The notes below the pieces were generated by a model. It was not told the origin of the DNA, ran no database searches, and saw nothing but the letters and a program-made list of their open reading frames with translations. A program made the position numbers and the translations under genes. Positions 12,175 to 19,506 of a stretch of DNA of 64,000 nucleotides are shown here, one piece after another. The stretch is from Emticicia oligotrophica DSM 17448 (lineage in GTDB: Bacteria > Bacteroidota > Bacteroidia > Cytophagales > Spirosomataceae): assembly GCF_000263195.1 (NCBI RefSeq), contig NC_018748.1, forward strand, positions 1,426,001-1,490,000, in the 5' to 3' direction. Every line of letters begins with the position of its first letter. The first letter of the stretch is position 1.

Positions 12175-14586
12175 ATGTTTAACAAAAAGCTGCTATCTGA
12201 AAGAGACATCTGCACGAAATACATTTCACCTGCCATCGAAAAAGCGGGTTGGAATAAGCACATTCACTACTTAGAGGAGGTAAACATTACCGCTGGTAAA
12301 ATCTTGGTTAAAGGCTCACTCACTACACGAGCCAAAAACAAACGAGCTGACTATATTCTGTACTACAAAGACAATCCTGTTGCAATCATTGAGGCAAAAG
12401 ACAATAACCATGCTATGGGTGCAGGTATGCAACAAGGTTTAGAATATGCCCGAATGCTTGATATTCCTTGCATTTTCAGTAGCAATGGCGATGGTTTTAT
12501 TTTCCATGACAAAACTGCTCAAGATGAAAACATCGAGGTCGAAATTGGCTTAGATGAGTTTCCGAGTCCCGAAGCAATTTGGCTTAAATACAAAACTTTC
12601 AAAGGGCTTGATACACCCATTACTGAAAAGGTAGCTTTACAAAAATATTACTCCGATGGCAGCGGACGAAAACCTCGCTACTATCAACAAATAGCCATTA
12701 ATCGCACGGTACAAGCTATTGCAAAAGGTAATAATCGCATTTTATTGATTATGGCCACTGGTACTGGTAAAACTTACACAGCGTTTCAAATAGCTTATAT
12801 TTTATGGAAGGCCAGCGTTAAGAAACGCATTTTGTTTTTAGCTGACCGAACCGCTCTAATCGACCAAACTCGTAAAGGAGATTTTAAGCATTTTAAAGAT
12901 AAAATGACGGTTGTAGAACATCGTCAGGTAGATAAAAGCTATGAAATCTATTTAGCACTCTATCAAGGCTTATCGGGCAATGAAGACGATAAAAATATCT
13001 ACAAACAATTTTCACCCGAATTCTTCGACCTAATCATTGTTGATGAGTGCCATCGTGGTAGTGCAAAGGATGATAGTGCTTGGCGTGAAATATTGGCGTA
13101 TTTCAGTAATGCCACACAAATCGGTTTGACAGCAACGCCTAAAGAAACCAAAGAAACAAGTAATATCGAATACTTTAAAGACCCTGTTTATACCTACTCG
13201 CTCAAACAAGGGATTGATGATGGTTTTTTAGCTCCGTATAAAGTCCTAAAAATGCAGTTTGGTATGAATTCGGGGGCGGAACAATGGCGACCCGAAAAAG
13301 ACAAACTCGACAAGCAGGGCAATCTGATAGAAGACAGGGTATATAACCTCAAAGACTTTGACCGAAACTTAGTGATTGAAGAACGAACTCGAAAAGTAGC
13401 GAAACGTATCAGTGATTTCTTGAAAGCAACTAACCGTTTTGACAAAACGATTATCTTTTGTGAGGATATTGAACACGCTGAAAGAATGAGGTCGGAGATA
13501 GTGAACCAAAACCCTGACCTTTGCCGAGCAAATGATAAGTATGTAGTGCGTATCACTGGGGATAATGACGAGGGCAAACGAGAATTAGACAATTTCATTA
13601 ACCCCGAAGAAACTTATCCTGTCATTGCCACTACATCGGAGTTAATGACCACTGGCGTTGATGCTCAGACCTGCAAATTGATTGTGTTAGATGCCAATAT
13701 TGGTTCAATGACCAAGTTTAAGCAAATCATCGGGCGTGGCACTCGCATCAATGAAGAGTTTGGTAAACGATTCTTTACTATCATGGATTTTAGAAGTGCG
13801 ACCGAGCTTTTTGCCGATAAAAACTTTGACGGTGAGCCGATTCGGATAAAAGAAATAAACGAAGAAACCGATTTTGAGGAGATTGTAGCGGAGGAAAACG
13901 ATTTAGAAGCTCCTATTTCGAGCGAATATGATGCAGAGGAAACGGTAGCACTCGAAAATGCTGTAAACGAAACAAAAGAGACTTATAAAACAAAAGATTT
14001 CTTTTCGGCAACACCTAACAAACGCACCAAAGTCTTTGTGAATGGCGTAGAAGTTACGCTATTGGTTGAGCGTGAAATGTATTTCGATAATGATGGTAAG
14101 CCGATTACTAAAAGTCTGAAAGATTACACCAAAGATATTATTCAGGCACGATATAATTCATTAGATGAATTTTTGAATAAATGGAATGCCACCGATAGAA
14201 AAGATGCCATCATTGCCGAACTCGAAGAACAAGGCATATTCATTGAACATTTAAAAGAAGCCGTAAACAAGGATTTTGATTTGTTCGACCTTATTTGCCA
14301 CATCGCATTTGAGCAGCCTCCATTGAGCCGTAAAGACCGAGTAGAAAGTGTAAAAAAACGCAATTATTTTACGAAGTATGGCGAACAAGCTCGCAAGATT
14401 CTCGAAACACTTTTAGAGAAATACGGAGAAGAGGGCATTGAGAATTTAGAAAACATTGATATTCTGAAAGTGCAGCCACTAAGCCAATTTGGTTCGGCTT
14501 ACGAGATTATCACTACTTTTGGGGGTAAAAGCAAGTATTTACAGGCTATTAAAGAATTAGAAAACGAAATTTATAAAACTGCATAA
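12175..14586 (+). CDS. hsdR: type I restriction enzyme, R (motor/nuclease) subunit
   Basis: An 803-residue HsdR of the EcoEI-like class. The N-terminal nuclease domain shows the PD-(D/E)xK pattern, ADYILYY...IIEAK (about residues 59-76). The superfamily 2 translocase follows: Walker A MATGTGKT at 193-200, DECH box at 290-293, motif III GLTATP, and motif VI QIIGRGTRINE. The C-terminal part would bind HsdM. The enzyme translocates DNA and cleaves unmodified DNA at a distance. It is first in a rightward cluster with fic, hsdM, a PIN TA pair, a transposase and hsdS. The start is the first ATG after a non-coding AT-rich leader. Confidence 0.93.
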   Translation: MFNKKLLSERDICTKYISPAIEKAGWNKHIHYLEEVNITAGKILVKGSLTTRAKNKRADYILYYKDNPVAIIEAKDNNHAMGAGMQQGLEYARMLDIPCIFSSNGDGFIFHDKTAQDENIEVEIGLDEFPSPEAIWLKYKTFKGLDTPITEKVALQKYYSDGSGRKPRYYQQIAINRTVQAIAKGNNRILLIMATGTGKTYTAFQIAYILWKASVKKRILFLADRTALIDQTRKGDFKHFKDKMTVVEHRQVDKSYEIYLALYQGLSGNEDDKNIYKQFSPEFFDLIIVDECHRGSAKDDSAWREILAYFSNATQIGLTATPKETKETSNIEYFKDPVYTYSLKQGIDDGFLAPYKVLKMQFGMNSGAEQWRPEKDKLDKQGNLIEDRVYNLKDFDRNLVIEERTRKVAKRISDFLKATNRFDKTIIFCEDIEHAERMRSEIVNQNPDLCRANDKYVVRITGDNDEGKRELDNFINPEETYPVIATTSELMTTGVDAQTCKLIVLDANIGSMTKFKQIIGRGTRINEEFGKRFFTIMDFRSATELFADKNFDGEPIRIKEINEETDFEEIVAEENDLEAPISSEYDAEETVALENAVNETKETYKTKDFFSATPNKRTKVFVNGVEVTLLVEREMYFDNDGKPITKSLKDYTKDIIQARYNSLDEFLNKWNATDRKDAIIAELEEQGIFIEHLKEAVNKDFDLFDLICHIAFEQPPLSRKDRVESVKKRNYFTKYGEQARKILETLLEKYGEEGIENLENIDILKVQPLSQFGSAYEIITTFGGKSKYLQAIKELENEIYKTA

Positions 14587-14595
14587 GTGGCATTT

Positions 14596-15198
14596 ATGAA
14601 ATATCAAACTTCTTATGACCAGAATGAAAACCTACCCAATAAGCAGGGACTTCTGAATAAAGATGAAATAGACTTAGCCGAATTTGAAGGTTTTTTAACT
14701 GCCGAAATCTTACTTACTGATAAGCTAACTTCAAAAACTAAATTCGACTTAAAATATATTCAAAACATACATTTGTTGGCATTGGGTGAACTTTACGACT
14801 TTGCAGGAAAATGGCGAACCGTAAATTTATCAAAAGGAGGTTATGTCTTTGCTTCGGCTCAGTTTTTAGACCAAACCATGCAATATTTTGAAGATGAAAT
14901 GCTGAAAAACTTACCTAAAAGATATGCTTCAAAAGAAGATTTATTGAATGATGTAGCAAAAATTCATGCTGAATTACTCTTTATACACCCTTTTAGAGAG
15001 GGGAATGGACGAGCAGCTCGGATATTAGCAAATTTGATGTGCAGAAAATACGGTTATGAGCCACCCAATTGGGAGTTGATAAGCAAAGATGAAAAAGAGC
15101 CTTTAAATTTCGGAATTTATGTAAAGGCTGTTCAACAGGCTGCTAATCAAGACTATACCCTCATGCAGCAAATTTTTAGGCAGATTTCTCTATCTTGA
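14596..15198 (+). CDS. Fic/DOC-family AMP-transferase-like toxin
   Basis: About 200 residues. The Fic core motif HPFREGNGRAAR (H at residue 131) is complete: catalytic His, the acidic residue, the GNGR phosphate-binding loop and the terminal Arg. A flap region with GGYVFAS precedes it. Fic enzymes usually transfer AMP from ATP to target proteins. The start is set at ATG 14596; a GTG at 14587, right after the hsdR stop, would add three residues. No SxxxE(G/N) inhibitory helix is visible inside the protein, so it would need a separate antitoxin. A matching small gene is encoded on the opposite strand at 15176-15334 and overlaps this gene's end by 23 nt. Its position between hsdR and hsdM is typical of accessory genes in type I loci. 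Confidence 0.9.
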   Translation: MKYQTSYDQNENLPNKQGLLNKDEIDLAEFEGFLTAEILLTDKLTSKTKFDLKYIQNIHLLALGELYDFAGKWRTVNLSKGGYVFASAQFLDQTMQYFEDEMLKNLPKRYASKEDLLNDVAKIHAELLFIHPFREGNGRAARILANLMCRKYGYEPPNWELISKDEKEPLNFGIYVKAVQQAANQDYTLMQQIFRQISLS

Positions 15199-15334
15199 TT
15201 AATACTTTTTGTAGTATCTTTTGGGCGGTATCTGGTGGAATATTAATTCCTTCCAAACTGCCTGAAGCAATAGCCGAGGCAAGGATAGAATTATAAAGTA
15301 TAGTATTTTTACTATTGTTTTTTGCCTTTATCAT
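15176..15334 (-). CDS. putative Fic antitoxin (VbhA-like), convergent with the Fic gene
   Basis: A 52-residue reading frame on the minus strand, ATG at 15334-15332 and TAA at 15178-15176. After a basic N-terminus (MIKAKNNSKN), the sequence ASAIASGSLEGINIPPDTA contains S24-G-S-L-E28-G29. This matches exactly the (S/T)xxxE(G/N) inhibitory-helix motif of class I Fic antitoxins, whose Glu blocks ATP binding. The surrounding A-x-A-S-x-x-LEGI pattern also resembles VbhA proteins. The gene is tail to tail with fic and overlaps it by 23 nt, whereas known VbhA-type antitoxins usually lie upstream on the same strand. Expression is unproven; the family call rests on the motif and location. Confidence 0.68.
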   Translation of the reverse strand: MIKAKNNSKNTILYNSILASAIASGSLEGINIPPDTAQKILQKVLIKIEKSA

Positions 15335-15479
15335 AACAATATTCTATATGAATCACATAAAAAGCAATCTTTTGTAAGTCGTGCCGATATTGTAGCAACC
15401 CCGACAGGTGTAGGTTATAGCATACAAAAATTGCTTATGTAAAGTTACAAAAATTATATTTTAAAACAAATTATAGTAA

Positions 15480-16895
15480 ATGACCAACATTTCAGGCACA
15501 ATAAAAAGTATCCGTGATATCATGTGGCAAGACACTGGCCTTAATGGCGATGCCCAACGTATTGAGCAGCTCGGATGGATGCTTTTCTTTAAGATTTTCT
15601 CGGATAAAGATAAAGAACTCGAACTCATTGACGATAATTATAAAAGCCCAATCCCCGACCATTTTCATTGGGAAGAATGGGCTGCCAACGACGAAGGAAT
15701 AACGGGCGACGAACTCCTCAGTTTTATTGACCGTGAGTTGTTTCCTGCTTTGCGTAATATTGATGTCTCGACTGGCAACCGTCGGGCTTTGATAGTGCGT
15801 GAGGTGTTTGAGGGCAACAACAACTACATGAAAAGCGGCACGAATATCCGCAAGGTGCTAAACAAGCTCAACGAAATTGATTTTAATATTGCCAAAGACC
15901 GCCACGCTTTTGGCGAGCTATATGAGGGTATCTTGAAAGAACTCCAAAGTGCGGGCAAAAGTGGCGAGTTTTATACCCCAAGAGCCATTACGCAGTTTAT
16001 TACCGACATCATCAACCCCAAAATTGGTGAGCGGATTCTCGACCCTGCTTGTGGCACTGGTGGGTATCTGACTTGTGCCATTGAGCATCTGAAAAAACAA
16101 GCCAATAACGTTGAGCAACTCAAAAGCATTACCGAAAACATTGCAGGTTGGGAATACAAACCACTGCCGTTTTTGTTGGCTACTACCAACCTGATTTTAC
16201 ACGATATTGAAGTACCAAACATTCGTTTTGGCGATGCTCTCGACCAACCTTTGAGCAATTTTACCGAAAAAGACCGAGTAAACGTAATCTTGGCAAATCC
16301 GCCGTTTGGTGGCATTGTAGCCAATGGCAATGAGTCGAATTTTCCGCAGAATTTCCGTACGAAAGAAAGTGCCGATTTGTTTTTGATTCTGATGATTCAT
16401 TTGCTCAAAGCTGGCGGACGTGCAGGCATTGTACTACCCGATGGTAGCCTCACGGGCGAGGGCGTGAAACAACGAGTACGTGAAAAACTACTGAAAGACT
16501 GTAACCTACACACCATCATAAGGCTACCACAGAGTGTTTTTGCCCCTTACGCCACCGTAAATACCAATCTTTTGTTTTTTGATAAAGGCACGCCAACCAA
16601 AGAGATTTGGTACTACGAACACACCCTACCCGAAGGACAAAAAGCATATAGCAAGACCAAAACCATAAAAGTTGAGGAGTTTGAGCCAATAAAACAATGG
16701 TGGCACAACCGCCAAGAAAGCGAGGTAGCTTGGAAGGTCTCGATTGATACCATCATTGAGCGAGGCTATGATTTGGATATTAAAAACCCGAATAAAGTGG
16801 TAGAGGAAGTGGTTTATGATAGAAAAGCGATTATCGAAAATCTTGAAAAATCGTTTAGGGCTTCTTTGGCGATTATTGAAGAACTAAAACTTTAA
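15480..16895 (+). CDS. hsdM: type I restriction-modification, M (methyltransferase) subunit
   Basis: A 471-residue HsdM. An N-terminal helical domain (HsdM_N, about residues 5-130) precedes an N6-adenine methyltransferase. The SAM-binding motif I DPACGTGGYL is at 188-197, and the catalytic motif IV NPPFGG is at about 273-278. With HsdS it methylates the recognition site; with HsdR it forms the restriction complex. It lies 281 nt after fic, so it may have its own promoter, ensuring methylation independent of hsdR. Confidence 0.95.
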   Translation: MTNISGTIKSIRDIMWQDTGLNGDAQRIEQLGWMLFFKIFSDKDKELELIDDNYKSPIPDHFHWEEWAANDEGITGDELLSFIDRELFPALRNIDVSTGNRRALIVREVFEGNNNYMKSGTNIRKVLNKLNEIDFNIAKDRHAFGELYEGILKELQSAGKSGEFYTPRAITQFITDIINPKIGERILDPACGTGGYLTCAIEHLKKQANNVEQLKSITENIAGWEYKPLPFLLATTNLILHDIEVPNIRFGDALDQPLSNFTEKDRVNVILANPPFGGIVANGNESNFPQNFRTKESADLFLILMIHLLKAGGRAGIVLPDGSLTGEGVKQRVREKLLKDCNLHTIIRLPQSVFAPYATVNTNLLFFDKGTPTKEIWYYEHTLPEGQKAYSKTKTIKVEEFEPIKQWWHNRQESEVAWKVSIDTIIERGYDLDIKNPNKVVEEVVYDRKAIIENLEKSFRASLAIIEELKL

Positions 16896-16942: not shown

Positions 16943-17179
16943 ATGCAAACTACCACAGCCCCCTTGTCGCCTTTGCAATTAGAGTTGCTCAAATCCTTTA
17001 GTCAGCAGTCGGTTACGGAGCAAGATTTGATACAAATCAAAATCTTGCTATCGAAGTTTTTTGCCCAAAAGGCATCAAAAGAAGCTCAAAAAGTGATCGA
17101 AACCAAAGGATTGAGCAAAGCCGAAGTAAATCAGTTGGCAGAGCAGCACCAACGCACACCTTATAAAACCACTAAATGA
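16943..17179 (+). CDS. small antitoxin-like protein paired with PIN toxin
   Basis: A 78-residue protein, helical and charged, with LSKAEVNQLAEQHQRTPYK near the C-terminus. Its stop overlaps the start of the PIN-domain gene by 4 nt (ATGA), the usual antitoxin-toxin arrangement. It has no recognised DNA-binding fold; the antitoxin role is inferred from position and size. Confidence 0.6.
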   Translation: MQTTTAPLSPLQLELLKSFSQQSVTEQDLIQIKILLSKFFAQKASKEAQKVIETKGLSKAEVNQLAEQHQRTPYKTTK

Positions 17180-17589
17180 GGATTGTTTTAGATACGAATG
17201 TACTTGTAAGTGCGATTTCGCCCATTTCTGATTATTATTGGATTTATGAAAGCATCTTTGATGGTAAACTGACGCTATGCGTAAGCACCGATATTTTGAC
17301 AGAATATGCCGAAATACTCGAACGTTTCTATGGCTACGTAGTTGCCGAAGCCACCCTTACTGCTCTTTCATACTCGCCTTTTGTAGAGCAGTTTAGCCCT
17401 TCTTACTTCTGGAATATGATTACGCAAGATGCCGACGACAACAAATTTGTTGATTGTGCCATTTCGGCAAGTGCCGACTACATCATTACGCTTGATAAAC
17501 ATTTCAATGTACTACAAAACATACCTTTTCCGAAGGTTTTGGTACTAAAACCTAATGAATTATTGATTAAATCGGAGGAGGAGAAATGA
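17176..17589 (+). CDS. PIN-domain toxin (COG1569-like)
   Basis: A 137-residue PIN-fold ribonuclease-like protein. Acidic metal-binding positions are visible: D7 in VLDTNVLVSA, the DADDNKFVDCAI segment (about residues 90-101) and D in YIITLDKHF (about 115). This matches the 'putative toxin-antitoxin system toxin component, PIN family' group. It would cleave RNA when not held by its antitoxin, presumably the 78-residue gene just upstream. The pair is inserted between hsdM and hsdS. Confidence 0.82.
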   Translation: MRIVLDTNVLVSAISPISDYYWIYESIFDGKLTLCVSTDILTEYAEILERFYGYVVAEATLTALSYSPFVEQFSPSYFWNMITQDADDNKFVDCAISASADYIITLDKHFNVLQNIPFPKVLVLKPNELLIKSEEEK

Positions 17590-17598
17590 AGAAAAGTT

Positions 17599-18042
17599 AT
17601 GCCATTTATTAAAGTCTATATTCATTTTGTTTGGAGTACCAAAAACCGAGAGCAATCTCTCGTTACCAAAGAGATTCGGCAGATGGTTTGGCAACATATC
17701 AGAGAAAATGCCCGAGAAAAAGGTGTTTTTATAGATTTCATCAATGGCTATTCCGACCACTGCCATTGCTTGGTTTCACTCGGAGTTGACCAAACTATTC
17801 AGAAAATAATGCAACTCATTAAGGGGGAATCTTCTTTTTGGATAAACAAGCATAAGATTATCGAACAAAAATTTGAATGGCAAGATGAATACTTTGCTGT
17901 ATCGGTTTCAGAATCGATGATTGATAAAGTTAGGAATTATATCAAAAACCAGGAAGAACATCATAAAACGAAGACATTTGAACAAGAATATGATGAATTT
18001 ATTTTGAAATATGGATTTGAAAAGTTTAAAGATAATCAATGA
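17599..18042 (+). CDS. IS200/RAYT-like HUH (Y1) transposase
   Basis: A 147-residue single-domain Y1 transposase. The HUH motif is visible as DHCHCLVS (about residues 54-61), and the catalytic tyrosine is in NYIKNQEEHH (about 114-123). It is full length for this family. No tnpB is associated. Hairpin-rich DNA follows directly (18045-18196), so a REP-associated tyrosine transposase (RAYT) is as likely as a classical IS200 enzyme. It sits between the PIN gene and hsdS without disrupting either. Confidence 0.82.
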   Translation: MPFIKVYIHFVWSTKNREQSLVTKEIRQMVWQHIRENAREKGVFIDFINGYSDHCHCLVSLGVDQTIQKIMQLIKGESSFWINKHKIIEQKFEWQDEYFAVSVSESMIDKVRNYIKNQEEHHKTKTFEQEYDEFILKYGFEKFKDNQ

Positions 18043-18216: not shown

Positions 18217-19506
18217 ATGAAATATAGATTAGGAGACATTTGTACCATCACCAAAGGCGAAACTGGCATTATGAAAGCCATTGATGGAGCTTACACGATG
18301 GTTACTTTGGGAGAAGCCAACAAAACACACAATGCTTATCAGTTTGATACTAAGGCGGTTATTATTCCTTTAGTTTCTTCTACTGGACACGGACACGCCA
18401 GCATGAAACGAGTAAAATACCAAGAAGGGAAATTTGCATTGGGCAGCATTCTTTGTGCAGTCATACCGAAAGATGAAAACTTTGTTTTGGCTAAATACCT
18501 GCACATTTATTTGCACTGGAATAGAGAAGAATTATTGGTTTCGCAGATGAAAGGAATGGCAAATGTAAGTTTGCCGATGAATAAAATTGCCGATGTAATT
18601 GTAACTGTACCGAGCCTTGAAAAGCAAAAAGAAATAGTTGAGTTGGAGAAAAAATTGGTTGAAAAAGAGCTTGAAGCCGACAAACTTTATACCCACCAAC
18701 TCACCCTCATAGAAAACCTAAACCAAGCTATTTTACAAGAAGCGGTGCAAGGGAAATTAGTACCACAAGACCCCACCGATGAGCCAGCCAGCCAATTATT
18801 GGAGCGAATAAAAGCAGAAAAAGCCAAAACAGGCAAAAAAGAAAAACCGCTACCACCCATCAAACCCGAAGAAATACCTTTTGAAATTCCTGACAATTGG
18901 GTTTGGTGTAGGTTGGGGGAAATTATTAACTTCATTTCGGGAAATAATTTTGAAAGTACCGATTTTTTTAAAGGAAATGGTGTAAAATGTATTAAAATAA
19001 CTAATGCAGGGGTTGGGCAAATTATTGAGACTGATGATGTTCTACCATTTGAATTTCTTGAAAAATATAGCCAATTCATTGTAAATGAAGGGGATTTAAT
19101 TCTTGCATTGACTCGTCCTTACATTTCGACAGGGTTAAAAATAAGTATTTGCCCTCCTTCATATCATCAATCTTTGCTAAATCAAAGAGTAGCTGTAATC
19201 CGACCAATTTCAGGTGTTATAAGTTCTTTCTTGTTTCAGTTTTTATCATCAAGTATAGTTTTAAAAATTTATCAAGATAAATTTGATGGACAAGGACAAC
19301 AACCAAATCTAAAAAAAGAGGATGTTACAAATTTATTTTTCCCTCTTCCGCCCCTATCCGAGCAGCAGCGAATAGTAGCCGAAATAGAAAAGCAATTGAG
19401 CAAAACCAAAGAACTAAAGGCACACATCATAGCCAACCAACAAGCCACCGAGCAATTGCTCAAAGCACTATTGCATGGGGCTTTTGAGGTGGAGGAGAAC
19501 GTGTAA
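18217..19506 (+). CDS. hsdS: type I restriction-modification, S (specificity) subunit
   Basis: A 429-residue HsdS. Target-recognition domain 1 covers about residues 1-135, followed by a coiled-coil spacer (about 136-200, KQKEIVELEKKLVEKELEAD then NLNQAILQEAVQGKLV). A second recognition domain begins at PDNWVWCRLGEI (about 227), and a second coiled coil, PLSEQQRIVAEIEKQLSKTK, is near the end. It determines the bipartite DNA site for HsdM and HsdR. The first recognition domain looks shorter than the second. It is the last gene of the cluster, displaced from hsdM by the TA pair and transposase. Confidence 0.92.
   Translation: MKYRLGDICTITKGETGIMKAIDGAYTMVTLGEANKTHNAYQFDTKAVIIPLVSSTGHGHASMKRVKYQEGKFALGSILCAVIPKDENFVLAKYLHIYLHWNREELLVSQMKGMANVSLPMNKIADVIVTVPSLEKQKEIVELEKKLVEKELEADKLYTHQLTLIENLNQAILQEAVQGKLVPQDPTDEPASQLLERIKAEKAKTGKKEKPLPPIKPEEIPFEIPDNWVWCRLGEIINFISGNNFESTDFFKGNGVKCIKITNAGVGQIIETDDVLPFEFLEKYSQFIVNEGDLILALTRPYISTGLKISICPPSYHQSLLNQRVAVIRPISGVISSFLFQFLSSSIVLKIYQDKFDGQGQQPNLKKEDVTNLFFPLPPLSEQQRIVAEIEKQLSKTKELKAHIIANQQATEQLLKALLHGAFEVEENV

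Follow-up and report, generated by a model that had tools for sequence, protein, structure and literature searches.

The question raised by this locus is whether a Fic toxin gene of Emticicia oligotrophica DSM 17448, which lacks the upstream, co-directional antitoxin in one operon that is the usual class I FicTA layout, is held in check by a 52-aa protein encoded convergently at its 3' end. In the 64,000-nucleotide stretch of DNA that was analysed (hereafter the window), we found that both genes are real, that the small frame is conserved and under protein-level selection, and that the convergent arrangement most likely has a single origin. The locus is very likely a class I Fic toxin-antitoxin pair, complete and in tail-to-tail order, in which the 52-aa protein would inhibit Fic; we infer binding, inhibition, target and growth effect from analogy with characterized relatives.

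The fic gene (14596..15198, + strand) encodes a 200-aa class I Fic (FIC-domain AMP-transferase) toxin that matched Pfam Fic (PF02661) at 7e-18 and, over nearly its whole length, PADLOC PDC-S04 at 1.9e-59. Its ATG lies 9 nt beyond the stop of hsdR (12175..14586, + strand; type I restriction subunit, NCBIfam NF046051, E=0), directly upstream, and is a likelier start than the alternative GTG at 14587 because homologues begin MKYQ. The predicted FicA-type antitoxin gene (15176..15334, - strand) runs convergently from an ATG and encodes 52 aa, MIKAKNNSKNTILYNSILASAIASGSLEGINIPPDTAQKILQKVLIKIEKSA; its tail-to-tail coding overlap with fic, whose ORF stops at 15198, is 23 nt (15176..15198). The start, stop, 52-codon length and overlap given for this frame in the earlier note were exact in every coordinate. 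Downstream of the pair lies hsdM (15480..16895, + strand; type I methyltransferase subunit, Pfam N6_Mtase 2.6e-70), and hsdS begins at 18217. The surroundings of the pair are a type I restriction locus, with the hsdRMS strand antisense to the antitoxin gene. Between hsdM and hsdS (16943-18042) we observed a second toxin-antitoxin-like pair, a 78-aa ORF and a PIN toxin (TIGR00305), together with an IS200-like transposase. A long imperfect inverted repeat between the antitoxin gene and hsdM (15372-15440) is unique in the genome, and its fold was not significant. As a structured RNA, the interval 15335-15479 was rejected (z -1.3, no Rfam family, unique in the genome).

The window Fic is a class I protein. 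It conforms to HxFx(D/E)GNGRxxR with the active-site motif HPFREGNGRAAR (14986..15021, + strand), read from the sequence, which includes the second Arg predicted to partner the antitoxin Glu, and the H, P, N, G, R and R of this motif were invariant in Fic alignment A2. The motif [ST]xxxE[GN] is absent from the window Fic protein sequence. Our model (pLDDT 73.5) has seven core helices, a non-helical stretch of 21 N-terminal residues and a chain that stops after helix 7, and it matched solved Fic structures including VbhT and EcFicT; because only the seven core helices appear in it, the protein seems to lack a built-in inhibitory helix. Motif and model alike bear out the earlier note's description of an intact active site without an internal inhibitory helix. 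In the closest relative (locus L001, 6001-6600), the motif reads HPFREVNGR, with Gly changed to Val in the active-site loop and the antitoxin retained, and because of this damage some convergent pairs may be inactive. A sub-branch comprising L010, L011, L047, L052, L069, L070 and L072-L075 has HPFxNGNGR, in which Asn replaces the metal-binding Asp/Glu; its antitoxin motifs are of the SMxLE or TMxLE type followed by N, E or G, and its chemistry is possibly different.

Conservation of the small frame was judged by a fixed rule that asked for a start codon, a length of 40-110 aa and the motif [ST]xxxE[GNKET] in an ORF on the minus strand, with its stop between -60 and +20 nt from the fic stop. 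The loci came from searches of whole Bacteroidota genomes, which returned about 40 fic relatives with identity down to 30%. A convergent ORF of this kind was present at the fic 3' end in 42 of 43 loci, compared with 15 of 860 shuffled downstream sequences (1.7%); with the strict motif [ST]xxxE[GN] the counts were 36/43 and 13/860. Among the ends of other genes 1/193 fit the rule, and this one was the true antitoxin of the L071 Fic, whose odd motif had initially placed it outside the fic filter; without L071, none of 192 fit. At the 43rd locus (L007), fic is broken by internal stops and the convergent antitoxin frame is intact. Since [ST]xxxE formed part of the selection rule, invariance of the motif is partly circular; no such circularity attaches to position, length, overlap or codon pattern. 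A distant Fic outside the 43-locus set (L024), with a degenerate active site (HPFFEFNGR), had no such convergent ORF. The frame was kept wherever a relative of the window Fic gene occurred, one of the points on which the earlier note had staked its reading.

The closest comparison is with L001, from Emticicia sp. 21SJ11W-3, whose Fic is 73% identical to the window Fic but has other surroundings, in which no hsd match was found. Its convergent frame stops at the corresponding position, with an identical 23-nt overlap, and encodes an antitoxin 72% identical to that of the window over 43 aa. The two antitoxins differ at codon positions 1/2/3 by 8/7/24, with dN 0.21 and a saturated dS of 2.5; the same third-position pattern was found for L014/L015, where dS is unsaturated (dN 0.07, dS 0.44), and the same codon-position pattern in the close pairs L060/L061 and L069/L074. 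The antitoxin frame is under protein-level selection. It also co-diverged with fic (Mantel r 0.82, 0/999 permutations), although linkage alone would yield such an r. A chance minus-strand ORF in the shadow of fic, carrying a motif common enough to arise by accident, would account for the failure of single-sequence profile searches to find a match, but it sits badly with the recurrence of the frame at nearly every fic locus, with the bias towards third codon positions in the antitoxin frame, with the co-divergence so qualified and with the fact that the bulk of the 52-aa ORF lies outside fic. We give this explanation practically no credence: the 52-aa frame is a real, conserved gene, beyond chance.

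The inhibitory motif S-G-S-L-E-G occupies residues 24-29 of the antitoxin (15248..15265, - strand). Ser24 and Glu28 were the only invariant columns in antitoxin alignments A1 and A7, and the S/T and E of the motif were invariant across 44 sequences. The earlier note had recognized here the (S/T)xxxE(G/N) motif in a VbhA-like A-x-A-S-x-x-LEGI context, and we agree on both counts, as the motif stands at the end of predicted helix 8-23 and AIASGSLEGI of the window corresponds to ALASQRLEGL of VbhA. The modelled protein has two helices (8-23 and 34-51), the first ending at the motif, in agreement with the description of FicA proteins (PMC8401265); confidence in the model was low to modest (pLDDT 69), and it was built from the window and Emticicia sequences alone because alignment A4 misplaces the motif.

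As a single sequence, the 52-aa protein had no family match in Pfam, NCBIfam, PADLOC or PHROGs and none in the PDB, and neither tblastn against plasmids nor Foldseek with the model returned a match. A profile of 17 antitoxins had VbhA as its best PDB match (3shg_B, E=0.033), and hhalign to six upstream FicA-type antitoxins gave a probability of 81.5 and an E of 1.1e-5. With a second profile (A7), interferon-gamma fragments scored above an antitoxin in the PDB and were set aside as short-motif noise. The cut-off of Pfam VbhA (PF18495) was reached neither by the window protein nor by A1 members; the upstream antitoxin L046 does match this family. The kinship with VbhA-type antitoxins was seen in profile-based comparisons but not at the Pfam threshold, and this link is weak and alignment-dependent. 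Because the A7 profile was noisier, we base the identification on the motif, its conservation and the pairing with fic, and take the profile match as support. Profile A1 also weakly matched parts of 430-475-aa proteins in related genomes (L031-L045).

In the Fic tree, a 99/97 branch separated all 38 convergent rows from six upstream-type Fics and a single class III Fic; EcFicT was included and lay outside the convergent branch, and FicY and Fic-1 were not among the rows. Because all pairs share this one branch, the convergent arrangement most likely arose once. About 4-5% of sampled Bacteroidota species carry such a pair. Convergent ORFs with STAIET or SSAIET were found in records of Citrobacter, Marinomonas, Proteus and Aeromonas and in prophage contigs, in E. 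coli NCTC9064 a 'hypothetical protein' is encoded convergently at the corresponding position by fic, and 29 of 5,426 E. coli genomes carry the convergent pair, as do enterobacterial plasmids and prophage contigs. Scans of viral contigs for Bacteroidota relatives found none; the viral contigs recovered with A2 held gammaproteobacterial-type pairs. A probable function can thus be given to a mostly unannotated 'hypothetical protein' of Bacteroidota and enterobacteria, and Fic genes that look like orphan toxins because nothing precedes them are accompanied by an antitoxin gene on the opposite strand. For this reason, screens restricted to upstream genes or to Fic alone miss half of the system.

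FicA has been placed upstream of Fic (PMC3667792, PMC5033356), and the earlier note's view that such antitoxins are normally upstream and co-directional holds for VbhA, EcFicA and AntF. It overlooks FicY/AntY of Yersinia pseudotuberculosis, for which convergent transcription from independent promoters has already been noted (PMC7479194). Because FicY/AntY is accepted as class I, an upstream antitoxin is usual for the class, not defining. The window pair shares with FicY/AntY a class I Fic and a convergent downstream antitoxin, and the STAIET of AntY recurs as the motif in gammaproteobacterial members of the window pair's branch. In contrast to FicY/AntY, the window pair belongs to the Bacteroidota branch, with a Fic about 30% identical to gammaproteobacterial Fics; its antitoxin motif is SGSLEG where AntY has STAIET, its genes overlap by 23 nt, and it sits in a type I restriction locus. 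It is most likely a distant cousin of FicY/AntY, with FicY placed by its motif only. VbhT/VbhA of Bartonella has the same Fic fold, HPFxEGNGR and a small antitoxin with a helix ending in (S/T)xxxE(G/N), and EcFicT/EcFicA (YhfG) and Fic-1/AntF are likewise class I with a separate small antitoxin and the same motif, but in all three the antitoxin is upstream, and VbhA is co-directional where the window antitoxin is convergent. The models found for PADLOC PDC-S04 cover the Fic protein; the window antitoxin matches no PADLOC model. The convergent arrangement is already published, and the window pair has a real antitoxin of a known kind. What is new is that these pairs form one ancient family across two phyla, that their 3' ends nearly always overlap, that leaderless-type promoters are frequent in Bacteroidota, and that pairs are also found within type I restriction loci and within an integron. 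A type II pair that is convergent also makes it testable how toxin and antitoxin are balanced without a shared operon.

The two genes probably have separate promoters, as has been described for ficY and antY. A TAnnTTT box ends 2-12 nt upstream of the ATG in 18 of 31 Bacteroidota antitoxins, and exactly 4 nt before it in 11 of them, among which are L014, L015, L059, L060, L061, L064, L065, L067, L068 and others. By shuffling, 1.4 would be expected, and the box was present at 15 of 202 other ORFs (8/202 at 4 nt); the resulting p-values, 2.6e-10 and 1.5e-6, are optimistic because start codons were chosen by rule and the loci are related. The box stood at 4 nt in 6/27 fic genes. In a flavobacterium, the -7 box spans -12 to -5 and leaderless mRNAs make up only 5.5% of the total (PMC9723704); with this spacing a 4-nt gap would put the ATG at +1, which suggests that the Bacteroidota antitoxins with that gap have leaderless mRNAs. 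The window antitoxin has no TAnnTTT box near its ATG. Its best candidate promoter, TTTG-N19-TAACTTTA (15440..15470, - strand), 105 nt upstream of the ATG, is a weak match to consensus that 24% of shuffles equalled in score, and is not significant alone.

For the protein, the convergent antitoxin that the earlier note had proposed for this class I Fic is backed by the conserved frame, protein-level selection, the FicA/VbhA profile similarity and the AntY counterpart (PMC7479194), and by analogy it almost certainly keeps the Fic toxin off. We propose that the + strand fic yields an AMP-transferase whose active site is intact and which carries no inhibitory helix itself, and the - strand gene a two-helix antitoxin of 52 aa whose first helix, ending S24-x-x-x-E28-G, would bind Fic as in VbhA, EcFicA, AntF and above all AntY. 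Glu28 would pair with the second Arg of HPFREGNGRAAR, ATP would be bound unproductively and the toxin would be off; upon a shortfall of antitoxin, Fic would stop growth by AMPylating ParE and/or GyrB, a subunit of type IIA topoisomerases. The small protein might also do more than lock Fic, binding it as a chaperone or turning it into a de-AMPylase, a reading we hold to be somewhat doubtful and which is compatible with inhibition. The Fic-1-AntF complex is reported to de-AMPylate GyrB (PMC13327609), and the inhibitory helix may be crucial to de-AMPylation (PMC8401265), but AntY (motif S22TAIET27) by itself fully blocked AMPylation of ParE by FicY in vitro at 1:3 (PMC7479194).

Protein inhibition could also be combined with an RNA component, the 3'-overlapping transcripts acting as mutual antisense RNAs as in type I toxin-antitoxin systems. 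Of 42 pairs, 41 have overlapping coding ends, with a median of 20.5 nt, and a scan for simple intrinsic terminators between and around the two stops of the window found no terminator-like site, so the two transcripts probably overlap; the 9-nt spacing of fic behind hsdR and the antisense orientation of the hsdRMS strand would favour such coupling as well. A long RNA duplex is not conserved, however, as the L048 pair has no overlap and other gammaproteobacterial pairs overlap by 4 nt, and compactness would explain the overlap. We consider this mixed system unlikely: the antisense overlap probably stems from compactness, and may also regulate. A more elaborate proposal, in which an ancient branch was selected to stay tail to tail with its own, often leaderless promoters, with transcript overlap adding an RNA-level switch to the protein lock and read-through from the hsd side shifting the toxin-to-antitoxin ratio, seems to us quite improbable. 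We judge it similarly improbable that the type I restriction system around the pair uses it as an anti-phage or guard module. In favour of this reading, fic follows hsdR in the window and an hsdS-like gene in L094, with a further hsd gene next, and PADLOC lists the Fic family as candidate PDC-S04; by tblastn, however, just one of 20 other loci (L094, in G147) lies, like the window, in a type I locus, a PDC-S04 system in its native host gave no defence (PMC12409345), though that system may be of another branch, and a mobile addiction cassette is simpler. A general link of the pairs to type I restriction was accordingly set aside as unsupported beyond these two loci. The gene order in L094 is hsdM, hsdS-like gene, fic, antitoxin (other strand) and hsdR, with the fic start overlapping the end of the preceding gene by 1 nt.

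Convergent pairs were found stand-alone, in the type I restriction loci of the window and L094, and beside integrases in enterobacteria; together with an integron, these varied contexts fit a mobile addiction module. In L096 (7913-8889), two attC-like repeats, 98% identical and spaced by about 0.94 kb, flank a fic-antitoxin pair at a distance of 1.1 kb from an integron integrase (TIGR02249, 3.8e-132); judging from this arrangement, the two convergent genes probably make up one integron cassette.
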